This document shows, piece after piece, positions 23,854 through 35,500 of a stretch of DNA of 64,000 nucleotides. A program made the translations under genes and the position numbers. Below the pieces are notes generated by a model. It saw only the letters and a program-made list of their open reading frames with translations. It was not told the origin of the DNA and searched no databases. The first letter of the stretch is position 1. Each line of letters begins with the position of its first letter. Origin of the DNA: Thermotoga profunda AZM34c06 (lineage in GTDB: Bacteria > Thermotogota > Thermotogae > Thermotogales > DSM-5069); NCBI RefSeq assembly GCF_000828675.1, contig NZ_AP014510.1, positions 1,755,413 to 1,819,412 of the forward strand. Direction: 5' to 3'.

Positions 23854-26800
23854 TCATTTCTCCAACTTTGGTGAGCAGAGCTTCTTCAAATTTCTCACAA
23901 TCAACATGTTATTTGTTTTCGATCTTCTGATAGCTGATGTTGTCGCTCTAAAGGCTTCTATTGTCGTGATGTAAGGTACTCTGTTTTTCACCGCTGCAGC
24001 TCTTATCCTGTAGCCTACAGTACGTTTATCTTCAAAATTCAATGGTGCTTTCATCCCAATTCTGTCACTTATAATACCTTTAATTGTATCTGGAGATTGA
24101 GTTATCACAACCAAATCTACCTTGCCTTGTTCTATCAAATCAATGACATCTGGCCTACCCTCTCCCACTTTTGGCACGTGTTTTGCCGGTATGCCAACGG
24201 AATTCAGTGTTCTTGCTGTGCCGTTAGTCGCGTAAATATCAAATCCTAAGTCAAACAAATGAGATACAAGCGGTATTACATCTCTTTTGTCTTTGTCTCT
24301 CACAGTAACAAGGATTGACTTCTTCGGTAGAGGATTCGAAGCGGCTATTTGCGCTTTTGCAAAGGCTTCAGCGAAATCTTCACCAATTCCCATAACTTCA
24401 CCTGTGGAACGCATCTCTGGGCCAAGTAATGAGTCAGTGCCGTGAAATCTATTGAATGGAATAACCACCTCTTTAACAGAATAAAATCGCGGCCATGGTG
24501 TTGGAAGAATTCCCTTGATGTTTAAGAAATCTGAAACATCGTATCTTGTTGGATATGGCCAATATTCAGCCAACAATTCGGTGAGTTTTCTACCAACAAG
24601 TATTTTTGCAGCCAATTTCGCAATCGGTATTCCTATTGCCTTACTGACGAAAGGAAAGGTTCTCGAAGCTCTTGGGTTCAATTCGAGTATGTAAATCTGT
24701 TCATCCTTGATAGCCAACTGAACATTAGCTGGACCAATCAATTTGAGTTCTTTTATCAATAAATAGATCGTGGATTCTATTCTCGTAATCATATCATCTG
24801 ACAGACTTATAGGCGGTAAGACACAGGCTGAATCCCCTGAGTGTATGCCAGCTTCTTCAATTTGCTCCATTAAACCAGCCACCCAAACATTTTCACCATC
24901 ACACAGCACATCCACATCTAATTCAATTGCATCTTCTAAAAATTTGTCTATTATTAGAGGATAACCCGGTGAAACCAATGCGGCTTGAAAAACATACTTT
25001 ACAAGTTCCTGCTCAGAATCGACAATTGCCATTGCTCTGCCGCCAAGTACATAACTCGGCCTGACAAGGACAGGAAAATCCAGATTTTTTGCTTCTCTCA
25101 GGACATTTTCAACAGATGTAGCAATAGCAAAAGGAGGAGTCTTCAAATGAAGTTTTTCAAGCAACTGAGCAAATTTTTCTCTGTTCTCTGCTATTTCGAT
25201 AACTTCCAGATTGGTTCCTATAAGCCTGACTCCCTCTTTTGCTAAATCGCCAGCTATTTTCAAAGGCGTCTGTCCCCCAAATGAAATAACGACACCCTCG
25301 GGTTTTTCATTTTCGATTATTTCCAAAACATCTTCAATGGTCAATGGTTCAAAATAGAGTCTGTTCGACACATCATAATCCGTCGATACAGTTTCTGGAT
25401 TGGAGTTGACCATTATTACTTCATAACCTTCTTGTTGAAATGCCCATACCGCATGAACATTGGCATAGTCAAATTCTATTCCTTGGCCGATCCTGTTTGG
25501 TCCCGAACCGAGAATGACTATCTTCTTTTTTTGTGATGGCAACGCTTCATTTTCAATACCGTTGTATGTTGAGTAGAAATAGGCAGTAGTCGCTTCAAAT
25601 TCACCAGCACAGGTATCAACCATTTTGTAAACTGGTCTGATGTTGTGCTTTCTCCTGAATTCTCTGACATCCTTCTCGGTAACCTCAAATATCTCAGCGA
25701 GTTCTCTATCTGAAAATCCCCATTGTTTTGCCTTTCTCAACAATGAGTCTTTCATTCCATTCTTTCTGAGTTCTTTTTCAAAGTCCATAATCTGTTTTAT
25801 TTCATTCAAAAACCATCTGTCAATGTACGTTACTCGATAGACTTCTTCAACGGAGATTCCATTTCGAAAGGCTGCAAAGATATATGAAATTCTCTCTGGA
25901 GTCGGATTAGCCAGGTATTCTTTCAAGTGATCCAAGTCGAGTTTTGGCGTTATATCTAATTCGAGCGATCTTATGGCTTTTCCAAGTGCCTCTTTAAAAG
26001 TTCTGCCGATCGCCATTATCTCTCCTACTGATTTCATTTGCGTATTCAATCTCGGATCTGCTCCAGGAAATTTTTCCATTTGAAATCTCGGTATTTTCAC
26101 AACGACATAATCGATGGACGGCTCAAAAGCAGCTGTAGTTTTTGCGGTGATGTAATTTGGGATCTCATCTAATCTCAACCCCACTGCAGTGAGAGCAGCT
26201 ATCTTTGCTATTGGATATCCCGTAGCCTTAGAAGCAAGTGCTGAAGATCTTGAAACCCTTGGATTCATTTCGATAACAACCATTCTCCCGGTTTTGGGGT
26301 CCACTGCAAACTGGATATTACATCCTCCAGTCTTTATTCCTATTGCATCCAAAGCCTTTTTCGCTGCATCTCTCATTTGTTGGTATTCAACATCACTCAA
26401 AGTTTGTGCGGGAGCAACAGTAATAGAATCACCCGTGTGAATACCCATGGGATCTAAGTTTTCTATAGAACAAACTACTATGAAATTGTCTGCACAATCT
26501 TTCATCACTTCAAGTTCAAATTCTTTCCAACCTATCACAGATTCTTCAACCAAAACGGTATGCACAGGACTTTCAATCAATCCACTTGCAACAATTGTCT
26601 TGAGCTCTTGCGCATTGTAGGCTATACCACCTCCTGTCCCACCGAGAGTGAAACTTGGTCTGATGACAACTGGATAACCAAGTTCTTCTGCAACTTCAAG
26701 TGCTTCGGTAACCTTTGAGACAACTTTACTTTTGAGCACTTCTAACCCTTCTTTTTTCATGGTTTCCTTGAACAATTCTCTGTCTTCTGCTTTGCGTATT

Positions 26801-27165
26801 GTCTCTATCTCAACGCCAATAAGTCGAATATTGTGTTTTTCCAAAACACCCTTTTGGTAAAGCTCAACAGCGAGATTCAAAGCAGTCTGACCACCGAGTG
26901 TTGCAAGCAAAGCATCTGGTTTCTCATTCTCAATTATTTTTTCTATGTATTCAACAGTCAATGGTTCTATATAAACTGCATCCGAAAATTCAGGATCTGT
27001 CATTATCGTCGCGGAGTTTGAATTGACAACCACGATCTCATAACCAAGTTTTTTGAGAGCCTTCAAAGCCTGAGTGCCTGAGTAATCAAATTCCGCAGCT
27101 TGTCCTATTGTGATTGGGCCTGAACCTATTACGAGTATCTTATGTATATCATCCCTTTTTGGCAT
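23854..27165 (-). CDS. carB: carbamoyl-phosphate synthase large subunit
   Basis: 1103 residues. Two homologous ATP-grasp halves: [22 protein letters not shown] at the N-terminus and the repeat [18 protein letters not shown] near residue 560; a C-terminal MGS-like allosteric domain ([28 protein letters not shown]). It makes carbamoyl phosphate from bicarbonate, ammonia (tunnelled from CarA) and 2 ATP, for arginine and pyrimidines. It is the last gene of the arginine operon, 4 nt after carA. Confidence 0.97.
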
Positions 27166-27169
27166 CTAA

Positions 27170-29522
<2,353 letters not shown>

Positions 29523-30362
29523 TTAATCGTTTTTGATCATCGTTCCGACGCCTTCCAACGTAAAAATCTCTGATAATAACGAAAATTGGCAATTTCCATT
29601 TATTATGTGGACACTTTTAATCCCAGCTTCTATGGCATTGATTGCGCATTGAATCTTTGGTATCATGCCACCCTCTACAACTTTGCTGTCTATCAAATTC
29701 TGCGCATCTTTTTTTGTGAGATAGCTGATTAATTTACCATCTTTGAAAACACCATCTACGTCTGTGAGAAGTATGAGTTTCTCCGCACAAAGACTTTTTG
29801 CGATCTCGGAAGCCGCGATATCGGCATTGATGTTGTACGATTTTCCGTCTTCACCAAAGCCTATTGGTGCTATCACCGGTGTGTAATTCTTTTCAAGAAA
29901 AGTTTGTATAAGTTCTGCGTTGACTCTTTCTATTTTTCCAACATAACCTATGTCACCATTGCTCAAATCTTTCCGAGTAAATAGCAAATTTGCATCTTTG
30001 CCAGATATACCAACTGCCATTGTCCCTTGCATGTTTATACTCATCACTATATCTTTGTTTATCTTTCCAAGCACCATTTCTACCACATGCATAGTTTTAT
30101 CGTCTGTGACCCTATAGCCGTTACTGAAAGCAACCTTCATTCCAAGTTGATTCATCATCTGAGTTATCTCCGGTCCTCCGCCATGCACCACAACAGGCTT
30201 TATTCCCATATATTTCAAAATGGCAATGCTCTGAGCAAAGGATTTTCTTGAATCTTCATTTTCAACCACATTACCACCGACTTTTACCACGAAGATCTTT
30301 CCATGGAATTCTTTCAAATAAGGCAGAATATCAAAAAGAACCTGCATTTTTTCTTTTTTCAT
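29523..30362 (-). CDS. argB: acetylglutamate kinase
   Basis: 279 residues. Amino-acid kinase fold: [78 protein letters not shown]. It phosphorylates N-acetylglutamate, the usual feedback step of the cyclic pathway. Start ATG after GGGAGG; overlaps the argJ stop by 4 nt. Confidence 0.96.
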
Positions 30363-31558
30363 GTTCGATACCTCCCATTGATCTGTACATATTTTTCAGT
30401 CAAATCACACCCCCAGGCAACTGCCTGGGCATTTCCGCAATTCATATCAAACACCAAGAAAACTTTGGTGGAACACAAGATTCGCTTTGCAACGTTTTCA
30501 TCGAATAGAACACCCTGACCTTTCTCAAAAACCATCAAATCTTCCTGTTCATTCGATAGACGTAAATCTACCATTGAAACATCGAAGACTGCTCCGGAAT
30601 ATCCCGCTGCTGCTATGATCCTTCCCCAATTTGCGTCTTCGCCATAGATAGCCGTCTTTACGAGATTCGATGAAATAATACTCCTTGCAATCTTTCTTGC
30701 TATCTCTTCACTCGGCGCGTTAATTACCTCGACTTGAATGAGTTTTGTCGCACCTTCACCATCCTCAACGATTTTTTTAGCGAGTTCGATGTTGACTTCA
30801 TCGAGTGTCTTACAAAAATCTTCATACTCTTTCGTGTTTTCAACGATCTCCTTGTTTTCCGCAAGCCCATTGGCAAGTATTATTACACTGTCGTTGGTAC
30901 TGGTATCTCTATCCACATCGATCATGTTGTAACTTTTGTCTACAGAATTTCTCAACGACATCTTCAAAGCATTGTATGAAATCTTTGCATCGGTGAAGAT
31001 AAACGAGAGCATCGTAGCAAGATTTGGATGGATCATTCCAGATCCTTTGGCAATCCCAAGAATTCTGACGTTTTTACCACCTATTTCTATCTCTCTGTAA
31101 CTCAACTTGATCGCCGTATCCGTCGTCATTATTGCCTCTGCAAACTGTATTGGATCATCTGTTAGTAAATTAACGGCTCTTTCTATACCACTCTCTATTT
31201 TTTCAATAGGAAGCTGTACACCGATCACACCTGTAGATGAAACAAGAACACTGTCTTGGGTAAATCCGAGTTTTTCTGCCACCTTTTTTGCCATCTTTAG
31301 TGTGTTTTTCATCCCACCTTCGCCTGTACAAGCATTGGCATTTCCACTGTTTACCACAATCGCTCTTATGCCTTTAGGATTTCTGGCGAGCAATTCTTTG
31401 TCGTATATCACTGGTGCGGCTTTGACTACATTAGTTGTGAACATGCCATAGGCTGTGCATTCTTTTTCTGAATAAGCTATGGCAAGATCTTTTTTACACT
31501 TTTTTATTCCACAGTTTATCCCCACAAACTTGAAGCCTCTTGGAACATTTAAAACCAT
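30359..31558 (-). CDS. argJ: ornithine/glutamate N-acetyltransferase (bifunctional type likely)
   Basis: 399 residues from ATG 31558 (second of two tandem ATGs, better spaced from GGAGGT). The self-cleaving proenzyme motif is in [13 protein letters not shown], where the Ala-Thr bond is cut to free the catalytic Thr; [12 protein letters not shown] and [17 protein letters not shown] are also diagnostic. It transfers acetyl from N-acetylornithine to glutamate, recycling the acetyl group, so no argE is required; no argA is seen in the operon, which favours the bifunctional form. Confidence 0.95.
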
Positions 31559-31571
31559 CATCTACCTCCTT

Positions 31572-32597
31572 TCATGGATAGATTGGATTAAATTCAAGCC
31601 CACTATCTTCTGGCAAAGAAAAAAGAAGATTCATATTTTGTACCGCTTGACCAGATGCACCTTTAACAAGATTGTCCAGAACACCTATCAGGATCAAAGT
31701 ATTTGTACGTTCATCTTTTGCAAAAGAAACAAAGAAATGGTTTGAACCATAACTCCACTTGGTTGATGGATATATACCTGGCTTGAGTACGTGAATGAAT
31801 TTCTCTTCTTTGTAAAATTCACAGTAGAGTGCATATGCTTCCTCTGTACTCAAATTTGATTTGACATAAACAGTACTCAAAATACCCCTGATCATCGGAA
31901 CTAAGTGAGGCACAAAGGTTACGGCGATATCTTTATTAGACAGTCTTTTCATCTGTTCTTCCATCTCAGGTACATGTCTGTGAGTAACTGGGTTATAGGC
32001 TTTTAAAGATTCATCGATTTCACAAAAAGAGTATTCAGCTTCTTCCCTTCTGCCAGCCCCTGAAACACCCGATTTGGCATCTACAAAGATTTCACTTTCA
32101 CACAGAAAGCCTTCTTTTAAAATAGGAGCCAAGGATAGTAAGACACATGTTGGATAGCACCCAGGATTTCCTACAAAACTAACTCGTTTGATTTCATTCC
32201 TGTACAGTTCAACTAATCCATATGCTCTATTATTTTTTTCGTAACCTATGAGCTTCTTCGAATACCACTTTTCGTAAATGGACGGATCGTCAAATCTCAA
32301 ATCTGCACCAAGATCGATAACTTTAACCGCACCAACTTCCTTGGTGAGTTCATAGCTCGCACCTGAAGGCAATACAGTGAAAAGAACATCACAGTTGCTC
32401 TTGATCTTATCAGTGTTGATTTCTTCAAGCAAAATTTTTTCCATCGTGAATGGATAAACTTGATCCATCGATTTTCCAGCAAAATTCTTCGAAGCAAGGT
32501 AGGTTATATCGACGTATGGGTGACCCTTCAGGATCCTGACAAGCTCTAATCCAGTATAGCCAGTCGCTCCAATTATCCCAACTCTTACTCTTCTCAT
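31572..32597 (-). CDS. argC: N-acetyl-gamma-glutamyl-phosphate reductase
   Basis: 341 residues. Rossmann start VGIIGATGYTGLELVRIL and the active-site Cys in FVGNPGCYPTCVLL; His in the PHLVPMIRGI region. NADPH-dependent reduction to the semialdehyde, third step of arginine synthesis. Its ATG overlaps the argH stop (ATGA). Confidence 0.96.
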   Translation of the reverse strand: MRRVRVGIIGATGYTGLELVRILKGHPYVDITYLASKNFAGKSMDQVYPFTMEKILLEEINTDKIKSNCDVLFTVLPSGASYELTKEVGAVKVIDLGADLRFDDPSIYEKWYSKKLIGYEKNNRAYGLVELYRNEIKRVSFVGNPGCYPTCVLLSLAPILKEGFLCESEIFVDAKSGVSGAGRREEAEYSFCEIDESLKAYNPVTHRHVPEMEEQMKRLSNKDIAVTFVPHLVPMIRGILSTVYVKSNLSTEEAYALYCEFYKEEKFIHVLKPGIYPSTKWSYGSNHFFVSFAKDERTNTLILIGVLDNLVKGASGQAVQNMNLLFSLPEDSGLEFNPIYP

Positions 32598-33790
32598 TTT
32601 TCATCACCACCGAATTTTTGTGCGATCTTCTTATAAGCATCTCTGAATGGCACACCTTGTTTCACAAGCTCGTAGACTTTGTGTGTTGCCATGACATCAT
32701 CAGTCAAACTTTTGGAACATCTGTTTTCGTCTACTTGTAGTTTTTCAAAGACTATTTGCATTACAACGATGATGTCTTTCACAATCTGGAAGCCTTCTAT
32801 CATTGTTTCTTTGAGTAACTGAAGATCTCTGTGATAGCCTGTTATCAAGTTAGATGGAATCGTCACACATTCGATCATCTTCGAGACAATTCTGTTGTGG
32901 TAAGCTCTGACAAGCTCCAAAGGATCGGGATTGAGTTTTTGAGGCATTATAGAACTTCCCGTGCACAGTTCTTTTGGTAAGACAATATATCCAATCTCTG
33001 GCAGGGAAAAGAAGACGATCTCACTCGCAAATCTGTTCAGATCATAACTGATTTGTGAAAGGCTATGCAGTATGAGATATTCAAATTTTCCCCTGCTGAG
33101 TTGTGTGTATATAGGGTTCTGTTGAATTTTTTTGAACCCAAGTTCTCTTGCAATGAATTCTCTGTCTACCAAAATTGGTATTCCATATCCTGCACCTGTA
33201 CCCAGAGGTGATTGATCGATCAACCTATAGGTCATTTTGAGAATACTCAGATCGTCCTTGAGTGCATCGTGTAGCGCCATCGACCAAGTGTGAAAATCAG
33301 TTGGCATCGCTTTTCTCGTGTGGGTAAATCCAGCAAAACTCACTTTTCCATATTTTTTTGAAAAATTCTCAGTGGCTTTGATGAGTTTTTCTGTTAACTC
33401 CTGAATCTCTTTCAGTTGATCTTTGTAAAAGAGTCTCAATGCTGTCAGAATCTGGTCGTTTCTTGATCTTGCAGTATGGATCTTCTTCCCAGTATCGCCA
33501 AGTTTTTGAATCAAGAAATTCTCGATCGCAGTGTGACAATCTTCATCTTCCTGTTTTATCTGAAAACTTCCTTTTTTAACAAGATCCGCCAGTTCTTTTA
33601 ATACACTTTCTATTTGCTTAAATTCTTCATGTGTGATATATCCCATCTTCGAAAGCATTTTTGCATGAACGATGGAAGCCACTATATCGTAATTGATCAG
33701 TTTCACATCCACTATATAGTCCTTACCAACGGTGAATTTTTCAACAAATCTGTCCAGCTCATATCCCTTTTGCCATAACTTCTCAGACAT
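32594..33790 (-). CDS. argH: argininosuccinate lyase
   Basis: 398 residues, somewhat short for ASL (about 460) because the C-terminal part is reduced. Fumarase-superfamily signature [12 protein letters not shown], plus [29 protein letters not shown] and [12 protein letters not shown]. It splits argininosuccinate to arginine and fumarate. AAGGAGAT precedes ATG; overlaps the argG end by 8 nt. Confidence 0.94.
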
Positions 33791-35042
33791 TTTTTATCTC
33801 CTTTCTCCATGCAAAGGGATCTTTTTCTTTGAGCACAAGATTGTGAGCCTTCAGTCTAATCGAATGAATATTTATGAAGCCTTTCGAATCTGTCGAATCA
33901 AATCCACCTTCGACATCCATGCTGGAGAGATTCTGATCGTAAAGCGATGTAGGTGAGTATCTACTTATCGGCATCACATTACCTTTGTAGATAGAAACGG
34001 TCACAACCCCATCGATTGCTTCTTGAGATTTTTTGAACGCAGCGAGTAAAAAGTCCATCTCTGGAGAAAACCAAAAACCGTTGTATATCAACTCAGAAAA
34101 TTTTGGGATCAACATATCTCTCAAATGCATAACTTCTTTATCCATTGCTATGCCTTCGAGATCTCTATGAGCAATCCAAAGAATTGTCGCACCCGGTGTC
34201 TCATAAACTCCACGTGATTTTATGCCAATGAATCTGTTTTCAACCATATCCACTCTTCCAACACCGTTTTGTGCGCCTATTTTGTTCAAATACTCAAAGA
34301 GTTCAAGTGGATCTTGTTTTTGTGTACCATCTTCAAGATTGACTACCTTTACCGGTAATCCATTTTTGAAATGAATCTCTAAAAGCGTCTCGCGATCTGG
34401 TGCATCTTTTGGTGAAACCGTTCTGTTGAAAACAGATTCATCAGTTCTTTTTGAAGGATCCTCAAGCATTCCCGCTTCATGAGATATGTGCATGAGATTT
34501 TCATCTTCACTATAAGGTTTTTCAATACTCGCTTTAATTGGTATACCCTTTTGTTTTGCGTAATTTATCAAATCTGTCCTTCCTTTGAACTGCGTAAGAA
34601 ATTCTGGGTCTTTCCAAGGAGAGATGATTTTCAGATGTGGAGCAAGTGCAGCATAAGTCAGTTCAAATCTCACTTGGTCGTTACCCTTTCCCGTGGCACC
34701 GTGGGCAACGTATTGAGCGTTTTCTATATTGGCTATCTCAACTTGCCTTTTGGCTATTAAAGGTCTTGCAAGCGATGTACCAAGTAAATACCTTCCTTCG
34801 TAAATTGCATTTCCCATGAGCGCCATGAAGATAAAATCGGTGACAAATTCTTTTCTGAGATCTTCAATGTAAACCTTTTTCGCACCTGTTAGTAAAGCCT
34901 TCTTTTTTATCTGGTCAAAGTCATCTTGTTGTCCGACATTCGCCACATAAGCAATTACTTCAAAACCTTTTTCACAAAGCCATTTGAGTATCACTGAAGT
35001 ATCCAAACCACCACTGTAAGCAAGTACCAATTTTTCTCCCAT
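33783..35042 (-). CDS. argG: argininosuccinate synthase
   Basis: 419 residues from ATG 35042 (8 nt after GGGGG; an ATG at 35048 is also in frame but only 2 nt from it). N-type ATP pyrophosphatase P-loop [54 protein letters not shown]. It condenses citrulline and aspartate. First gene of an eight-gene operon; an intrinsic terminator lies only about 20 nt before its start, so its expression requires read-through. Confidence 0.96.
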
Positions 35043-35063
35043 GATCATTTCCCCCTTTCTGCT

Positions 35064-35097
35064 AAAAAAACGGCCATATCATTTCTGATATGGCCGT
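35064..35097 (-). terminator. intrinsic terminator in the arginine operon leader
   Basis: Minus strand: 12-bp perfect stem ACGGCCATATCA / TGATATGGCCGT with GAAA tetraloop (35097-35070), running straight into seven T (35070-35064). It stands between the promoter and argG, so it must be conditional: an attenuator rather than an end-of-gene terminator. Confidence 0.85.
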
Positions 35098-35160
35098 GTG
35101 GGTGCTATAAAACCAAAAACGGACTAAGCGCCATTTAGCACCCACCGGCACTTGGTCCGT
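35098..35160 (-). promoter_or_regulatory. nested leader hairpins upstream of the attenuator
   Basis: Hairpin A: ACGGACCAAGTGCC (35160-35147) pairs with GGCGCTTAGTCCGT (35132-35119) with one mismatch and one G-U, followed by five T (35119-35115), itself terminator-like. Element B: GTGGGTGCTA (35145-35136), in the loop of A, is perfectly complementary to TAGCACCCAC (35107-35098), which abuts the terminator stem. A and B cannot both form as simple hairpins; together they would be a pseudoknot. The layout is that of a conformational switch. Confidence 0.7.
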
Positions 35161-35228
35161 CTGACTATACTCAAAACAACTTGCTCATTGAATTTTTTTG
35201 CCCACAGTTGAATCTCGATCGATCTCAC
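35124..35228 (-). CDS. putative 34-aa leader peptide ending in Arg-rich codons
   Basis: GTG 35228 with GGAGG seven nt upstream begins a 34-codon frame ending at TAG 35124. Arg codons are at positions 2, 23, 24 and 28; the last three (AGA CGG then CGG, in VRRTKCRW) fall exactly at the 5' arm of hairpin A, and the stop lies in its 3' arm. Placement between a good promoter and an attenuator before argG suggests a ribosome-stalling leader that measures charged tRNA-Arg. CGG would be read by the tRNA-Arg(CCG) encoded at 20127. Expression of the peptide is not proven. Confidence 0.55.
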   Translation of the reverse strand: MRSIEIQLWAKKFNEQVVLSIVRRTKCRWVLNGA

Positions 35229-35258
35229 AGACAAACCTCCACAAAATTCTTTGCAAGT

Positions 35259-35287
35259 ATGATACCAACAAAAGTCAACCTTGTCAA
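35259..35287 (-). promoter_or_regulatory. promoter of the arginine operon
   Basis: Minus strand -35 TTGACA (35287-35282), 17-bp spacer, -10 TATCAT (35264-35259). Predicted start near 35252, giving a leader of about 210 nt. The rest of the 475-nt gap, 35288-35470, is AT-rich and holds no further gene that I can support; I did not find a convincing ArgR box. Confidence 0.75.
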
Positions 35288-35473: not shown

Positions 35474-35500
35474 AAAAAGGGGCAACCTTTTGGTTGCCCC
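35474..35500 (-). terminator. terminator after flagellin gene
   Basis: 9-bp stem GGGGCAACC (35500-35492 side) with AAAA loop and GGTTGCCCC on the minus strand, followed by TTTTTG; 23 nt past the flagellin stop. Confidence 0.88.

Follow-up and report, generated by a model that had tools for sequence, protein, structure and literature searches.

A predicted arginine-codon transcription attenuator ahead of the arginine operon of Thermotoga profunda

In the trp and his attenuators of enteric bacteria, a short leader frame carries control codons for the amino acid of the pathway, a first stem lies over these codons and encloses the leader stop, and an antiterminator and an intrinsic terminator follow. 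A leader of the same layout was analyzed in a stretch of 64,000 nucleotides (nt) from Thermotoga profunda AZM34c06 (contig NZ_AP014510.1, positions 1,755,413 to 1,819,412; the window), where it precedes eight genes on the minus strand in the order argG-argH-argC-argJ-argB-argD-carA-carB. Judged from its sequence and that of its relatives, it is very likely a ribosome-mediated attenuator that senses Arg-tRNA through Arg control codons and acts on the transcription of argGHCJBD-carAB. It differs from the enteric attenuators in its Arg codons and arginine operon, in its Thermotogota host, in the lack of an Rfam family at the cut-off, and in an antiterminator that overlaps only the foot of the terminator (about 4 bp).

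The usual regulator of arginine operons is ArgR; in some Gram-positives, T-boxes take this role. ArgR of Thermotoga, E. coli and B. subtilis also controls arginine biosynthesis, but it is a DNA-binding protein. Arginine T-boxes, which occur in other bacteria (PMC1262725), likewise control arginine genes at the RNA level by tRNA-Arg charging, but they bind uncharged tRNA directly and have no leader peptide, and the window has no T-box match. The fungal arginine attenuator peptide and SpeFL are also short peptides with a link to the metabolism of arginine or ornithine, but what they detect is the free amino acid, via nascent-chain arrest. The leaders described here, in contrast, have variable spacing and residues, and RNA pairing explains their conserved part. 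For bacilli, Naville and Gautheret (2010, PMC2965389) predicted leader-peptide attenuation outside the Proteobacteria and Actinobacteria, with His leader peptides ahead of hisZ and hisS*. In contrast to the window leader, these concern histidine and Firmicutes, and the words arginine and Thermotoga do not occur in that paper. A Salmonella his leader that was given Arg-Arg codon pairs led to derepression of the operon (PMC4046918). Arg codons can thus serve as the stall site in such attenuators. Leader-peptide attenuation is already known as a kind of control. Attenuators in Thermotogales are reportedly mentioned in Vitreschak 2004, which, like Lopatovskaya 2010, lay outside the scope of the open-access literature searched; within that scope, no report was found of a bacterial arginine operon attenuated through Arg codons in a leader.

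The leader and its predicted mutually exclusive stems

The promoter, the GGAGG motif, the 34-codon frame, stem A, the core of antiterminator B, the terminator and argG all lie where the original prediction had placed them. The elements of the leader are as follows.

35259..35287, minus strand: sigma-70-type promoter TTGACA-17-TATCAT, 11/12 consensus matches, with TG ahead of the -10 motif
35236..35240, minus strand: Shine-Dalgarno motif GGAGG of the leader frame; a Shine-Dalgarno-like sequence precedes the start in every leader listed
35124..35228, minus strand: leader peptide frame MRSIEIQLWAKKFNEQVVLSIVRRTKCRWVLNGA, GTG start, 34 codons and TAG
35157..35162, minus strand: control codons AGA CGG (Arg-Arg), kept as RR or RRR (RKR in one) in 9/9 argG leaders
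35147..35160, minus strand: 5′ arm of stem A (anti-antiterminator), ACGGACCAAGTGCC, from structure and a partner-swap test
35119..35132, minus strand: 3′ arm of stem A, GGCGCTTAGTCCGT, which includes the leader stop TAG
35136..35149, minus strand: 5′ strand of antiterminator B, GCCGGTGGGTGCTA, which includes the third conserved Arg codon, CGG at 35147-35145
35093..35107, minus strand: 3′ strand of antiterminator B, TAGCACCCAC-A-CGGC, of which CGGC doubles as the foot of terminator C
35064..35097, minus strand: terminator C with the arms GGCCATATC and GATATGGCC, a perfect 12-bp stem (35097-35070) with a GAAA loop, and a T run

The leader contains Arg codons at codon 2 (AGA), at 35162-35157 (AGA CGG) and at 35147-35145 (CGG). 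This clustering stands against an Arg content of about 4% in the coding sequences of the window. The CGG codon, which is used twice (35159-35157 and 35147-35145), is the rarest Arg codon in the coding frames of the window (10/844). A scan of the window found three terminator-like sites versus 0.5 expected by chance, and the fold of the leader RNA had a z-score of -4.2, with 0/200 shuffles equally stable. The promoter scan found two sites versus 2.0 expected, so that their number alone is not above chance.

The core of B (GTGGGTGCTA/TAGCACCCAC, 35145-35136 / 35107-35098) abuts C, as the original prediction had said. The accompanying claim that B and C share no bases had to be given up. Beyond the bulged A35097, B extends by GCCG (35149-35146) paired to CGGC (35096-35093), and it thereby shares GCC with the 5′ arm of A and CGGC with the foot of C, which makes A, B and C mutually exclusive. 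All nine argG leaders have this extension. Because B overlaps the foot of C and the inner 5′ arm of A, the classic 1:2 / 2:3 / 3:4 logic of attenuators applies, and the weak point named in the original prediction is settled in part.

Under this logic, with ample Arg-tRNA the ribosome would get to the TAG, and the 5′ strand of B would be covered or held in A. With B unavailable, C would form and RNA polymerase would stop. If charged tRNA-Arg runs short, the ribosome would wait at the Arg codons and cover the 5′ arm of A, and B would pair once its 3′ strand emerges. B would then hold the foot of C (CGGC), and transcription would proceed into the operon.

Conservation of the leader in the Thermotogota

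The leader was compared across 103 Thermotogota genomes, which are assigned to families and genera labeled f and g; the window's genome belongs to family f1 and genus g1. The argG gene was found in 33 of the 103 genomes, and a leader of the window type lies ahead of it in nine of them, from three families (f1, f5 and f9). Apart from the window's genome, these are three genomes of f1 g1, two of f1 g4, and one each of f1 g3, f5 and f9. A ribosome site, a frame of 28-34 codons, stem A, antiterminator B and terminator C are shared by all nine. The Arg run is present in every one of them as VRR, RRR, IRR or QRKR (RKR in L004), and its codons vary synonymously (AGA CGG, AGG CGG, CGG AGA CGG, CGT AGA CGT, AGG CGA). 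The leader stop lies 24-29 nt ahead of the terminator arm in all nine, each has a Shine-Dalgarno-like sequence, and a TTGACA promoter is located 29-34 nt ahead of the leader start in eight.

The exact pattern GGCCATATC-loop-GATATGGCC occurs once per genome in the nine genomes, each time before argG, and in none of the other 94. In wider genome contigs the exact terminator had 18 matches. Two are Thermotogota records, apparently of genomes already in the set; the remaining ones, from scattered phyla, are probably due to chance. The terminator arms are invariant across the nine genomes with a variable loop, and the pairing of B accounts for the foot only. In the other argG-containing genomes whose upstream DNA was examined (f3, f4, f11 and others), a leader of this type was not seen directly before argG. 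The argG of L006 (G022, family f9) is 85% identical to that of the window, compared with 78% for L004 (G001) from the same genus, and the arginine operon may have moved between families.

A covariance model built from the nine argG leaders (R1; a second model is R2) finds more-divergent Arg leaders in family f10, where they head an argJ operon. The gene order of that operon differs; it begins with argJ-argB and includes a carB-argG frame. The regulator has stayed with the arginine pathway while the first gene differs. The five f10 leaders examined in full encode DRRR or NRRR, shortly followed by SRW, so that RRR is present in 5/5; they have a B strand that pairs with the terminator foot, and their TTGACA promoters lie 33-36 nt ahead of the leader start (5/5). 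In f10, carB and argG form one frame of 1496 codons (L102:4687-9177, L103:4666-9156), with an internal Shine-Dalgarno motif and ATG ahead of the argG part.

The end of the peptide is conserved as residues as well, with IRR(R)..RW in most f1, f5 and f9 leaders and RRR..SRW in f10. This could be expected if the nascent leader bound free arginine (or ornithine) inside the ribosome tunnel, in the manner of TnaC or SpeFL, and the resulting arrest set off the RNA switch; in SpeFL, the arrest peptide senses ornithine (PMC8429421). We consider such an arrest peptide quite improbable. RW is encoded by the 5′ strand of B and becomes RR or RG along with the 3′ strand of B (L005, L007, L004), and therefore pairing explains the conservation of RW. 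In addition, the distance from the Arg run to the end of the peptide varies from about 10 to 20 residues, and in sister leaders a similar scaffold carries His, Lys or Trp where the window leader has Arg.

Pairing specificity and the position of the ribosome

In a partner-swap test, all leaders contributed their 3′ strands as partners for each 5′ strand, and cognate and permuted energies were compared. For stem A, the cognate energy was -17.8 kcal/mol versus a permuted mean of -13.5 kcal/mol, and a fraction of 5e-5 of the permutations was as good. For antiterminator B, the values were -22.2 and -18.4 kcal/mol with a fraction of 1.5e-4, although the test does not fully remove relatedness among the leaders. 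With six diverse leaders only, the fractions were ~0.001-0.002 (1-2 of 720 orders), and the true pairing of B was at or near the best. Independently, RNAalifold yielded A and C, with six pairs in which both sides had changed in at least one sequence. The original prediction had named a lack of covariation and of an Arg-rich frame in relatives as telling against it. Instead, the frame is conserved with synonymous switching between CGN and AGR codons, and A and B prefer their own partners.

The 5′ strand of B lies within the loop of A, and thus a pseudoknot can be drawn. A translation-independent RNA switch, in which the loop of A and the 3′ strand of B form an aptamer-like pseudoknot of a riboswitch or a protein-binding leader, would also be in line with terminator arms that are invariant beyond the needs of pairing. 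However, every sign points to translation of the region, the Arg codons vary synonymously, and the codons of sister leaders track the gene. Loop and junction lengths vary, there is no conserved aptamer core, and no Rfam family reached its gathering score on the leader; the sole match at E<=1 was the molybdenum cofactor (Moco) riboswitch with 21.5 versus a cut-off of 36 bits. Such a switch is accordingly given little chance. A T-box or a known riboswitch was rejected on the same search, which gave no Rfam T-box match and no family at the cut-off.

The attenuator was then modeled by a ribosome walk, in which the remaining leader was folded at 60 °C with the ribosome at each codon and its 3′ edge at A-site +13. 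For the window leader before the 3′ arm of C is made, the pairing of the foot of C in B drops from 0.98 to 0.07 at codon 24, which is the second Arg of AGA CGG (start counted as 1). In the model, a stall up to the first control codon leaves B free, and one codon further on B is masked. At this stage and with the 13-nt footprint, B lets go of the terminator foot when the ribosome reaches the last control codon in 8/9 argG leaders; the same holds for the f10 leaders (5/5). With the complete terminator at equilibrium, 13 leaders show a dip at the control codons, including L007, L081, L085, L084, L098 and L082; the window leader is not among them.

Several results weigh against an attenuator of this kind. 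In L005, the loss with the 13-nt footprint does not fall at the Arg codons. If the edge is set at 11 nt, most losses move by about one codon, and in L007 and L009 they fall outside the Arg run; at 15 nt they move in the opposite direction, and the loss of L073 is displaced. The weakest step of the reading is that C stays at ~0.9 or more in equilibrium folding when the window leader is stalled at the Arg codons; the core of B and full C coexist in the stalled minimum-energy fold. Without a ribosome, before the 3′ arm of C is made, the model already favors B (0.96), and thus A must win by folding first. As B takes only the four-base foot of C, antitermination needs kinetics. The model therefore implies that the switch of the window must be kinetic, partial or aided by factors outside the model. 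Lastly, the possible transfer of the operon between families makes the nine leaders less independent than they look.

That equilibrium folding leaves C formed in the window would also fit an ordinary terminator with readthrough, or a constitutive leader, that is unregulated and has an incidental leader frame; intrinsic terminators often allow partial readthrough. Against such a plain terminator, A and B are conserved and partner-specific, the Arg run is conserved, and matching codons occur in unrelated operons. It is the least probable of the three alternatives.

Sister leaders, ArgR and the arginine operon

With R1 and R2, leaders with other control codons were found in front of other genes, which were named by NCBIfam on partial proteins or, where unscanned, by resemblance to those. 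The window's genome has a second leader attenuator of this kind, L084 (G000:C1:1173454-1173554, minus strand), encoding the peptide MRRFSISSVVNEVVNNQWWWYCPNSVG ahead of a TrpB-like gene, trpB2. It carries WWW, as do L140 and L141 before trpB2 in relatives; L148 has WWW codons and no called start, and L101 has WW before trpE. HHH or HHHH precedes hisZ-like genes in L089, L098 and L097, and is also present in L135 (f3), where the gene was not named by the family scan. The bacilli leaders mentioned above likewise stand before hisZ. Lysine codons are found before dapF (KKYVK in L075, L080, L082) and aspartokinase (KKQVK in L092). Mixed runs precede Lys/Arg/ornithine-type binding proteins (RKHVK or RKQHVK in L093, L143, L153), amino acid permeases (RKHDK or RKHIK in L094, L149), a polar amino acid transporter (RHHSR in L137, L147, L139) and binding proteins of ABC (ATP-binding cassette) transporters (RRDH and RRHH in L142, L090). 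The product of the single-group codon probabilities over eight groups is 2.6e-25, which overstates certainty because windows and groups were picked with the leaders in view. The R1/R2 matches L091, L095, L096, L099, L100, L146, L151 and L152 were dropped as plain terminators without a leader.

These gene-matched codons in similar leaders make the window leader one member of a widespread Thermotogota attenuator set. Together with the conserved Arg frame, the partner specificity of A and B, and the presence of C throughout, they bear out the reading of the window leader as an Arg-codon attenuator. The predicted leader control of the arginine operon is supported in this way, with the adjustment that leader-peptide control in Thermotogota extends beyond arginine. 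A further idea, which we put at slightly less than an even chance, is that the Thermotogota leaders form a clan built on one RNA scaffold. This scaffold, whose antiterminator (CCGGTGG/CCACCGG) would reach no further than the foot of a GGCCAYATC/GATRTGGCC terminator and take only that foot, would have been copied between operons and re-specified by swaps of the control codons, with Arg, Lys, His, Trp and mixed Arg-Lys-His versions and possibly one for Gln/Glu/Pro ahead of citrate synthase.

PF01316 (ArgR) was above the cut-off in eight of the 103 genomes, all of family f3, and in none of f1, the window's genome included; ArgR domains were also found in control genomes, among them the named control Thermotoga maritima. 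PF02863 (ArgR) was absent from the f1 genomes searched, again including the window's genome. ArgR control of the window operon was rejected, as an argR gene was not found in that genome or in f1. The attenuator probably replaces repressor control in f1. If so, leader-peptide control can take over the arginine pathway in a family without ArgR, and such control would be widespread in a phylum that branches deeply and is largely thermophilic. With the gene-matched sister leaders, direct tests become possible of the mechanism, of its evolution through swapped codons and of its function at high temperature.

The genes of the operon behind the leader, and a hairpin upstream of it, are as follows.

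33783..35048, minus strand: argG, first structural gene (TIGR00032; start at 35048 or 35042)
32594..33790, minus strand: argH (TIGR00838)
31572..32597, minus strand: argC (TIGR01850)
30359..31561, minus strand: argJ (TIGR00120)
29523..30362, minus strand: argB (TIGR00761)
28335..29510, minus strand: argD (TIGR00707)
27170..28387, minus strand: carA (TIGR01368; longest frame, family match from residue 18-19)
23854..27165, minus strand: carB (TIGR01369)
35479..35500, minus strand: terminator-like hairpin from the terminator scan, 3′ of an upstream flagellin-like frame

The argGHCJ cluster of Pseudothermotoga elfii shows a joint response to pressure (PMC10057702), which fits one transcription unit. 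The argF gene of the window's genome, which sits close behind another gene, has no apparent leader ahead of it. The hairpin at 35479..35500 suggests that the arginine operon is a transcription unit separate from the flagellin-like frame.

Two further groups of leaders were seen among the relatives. N-Q-P-E-P-K codons precede citrate synthase in L138, L139 (about 77656) and L147 (about 35242), and these leaders may sense Gln, Glu or Pro. Leaders ending in VVLIL(P)AGG or similar stand before an Xaa-Pro dipeptidase-like amidohydrolase in L087, L088, L144, L150 and L154.
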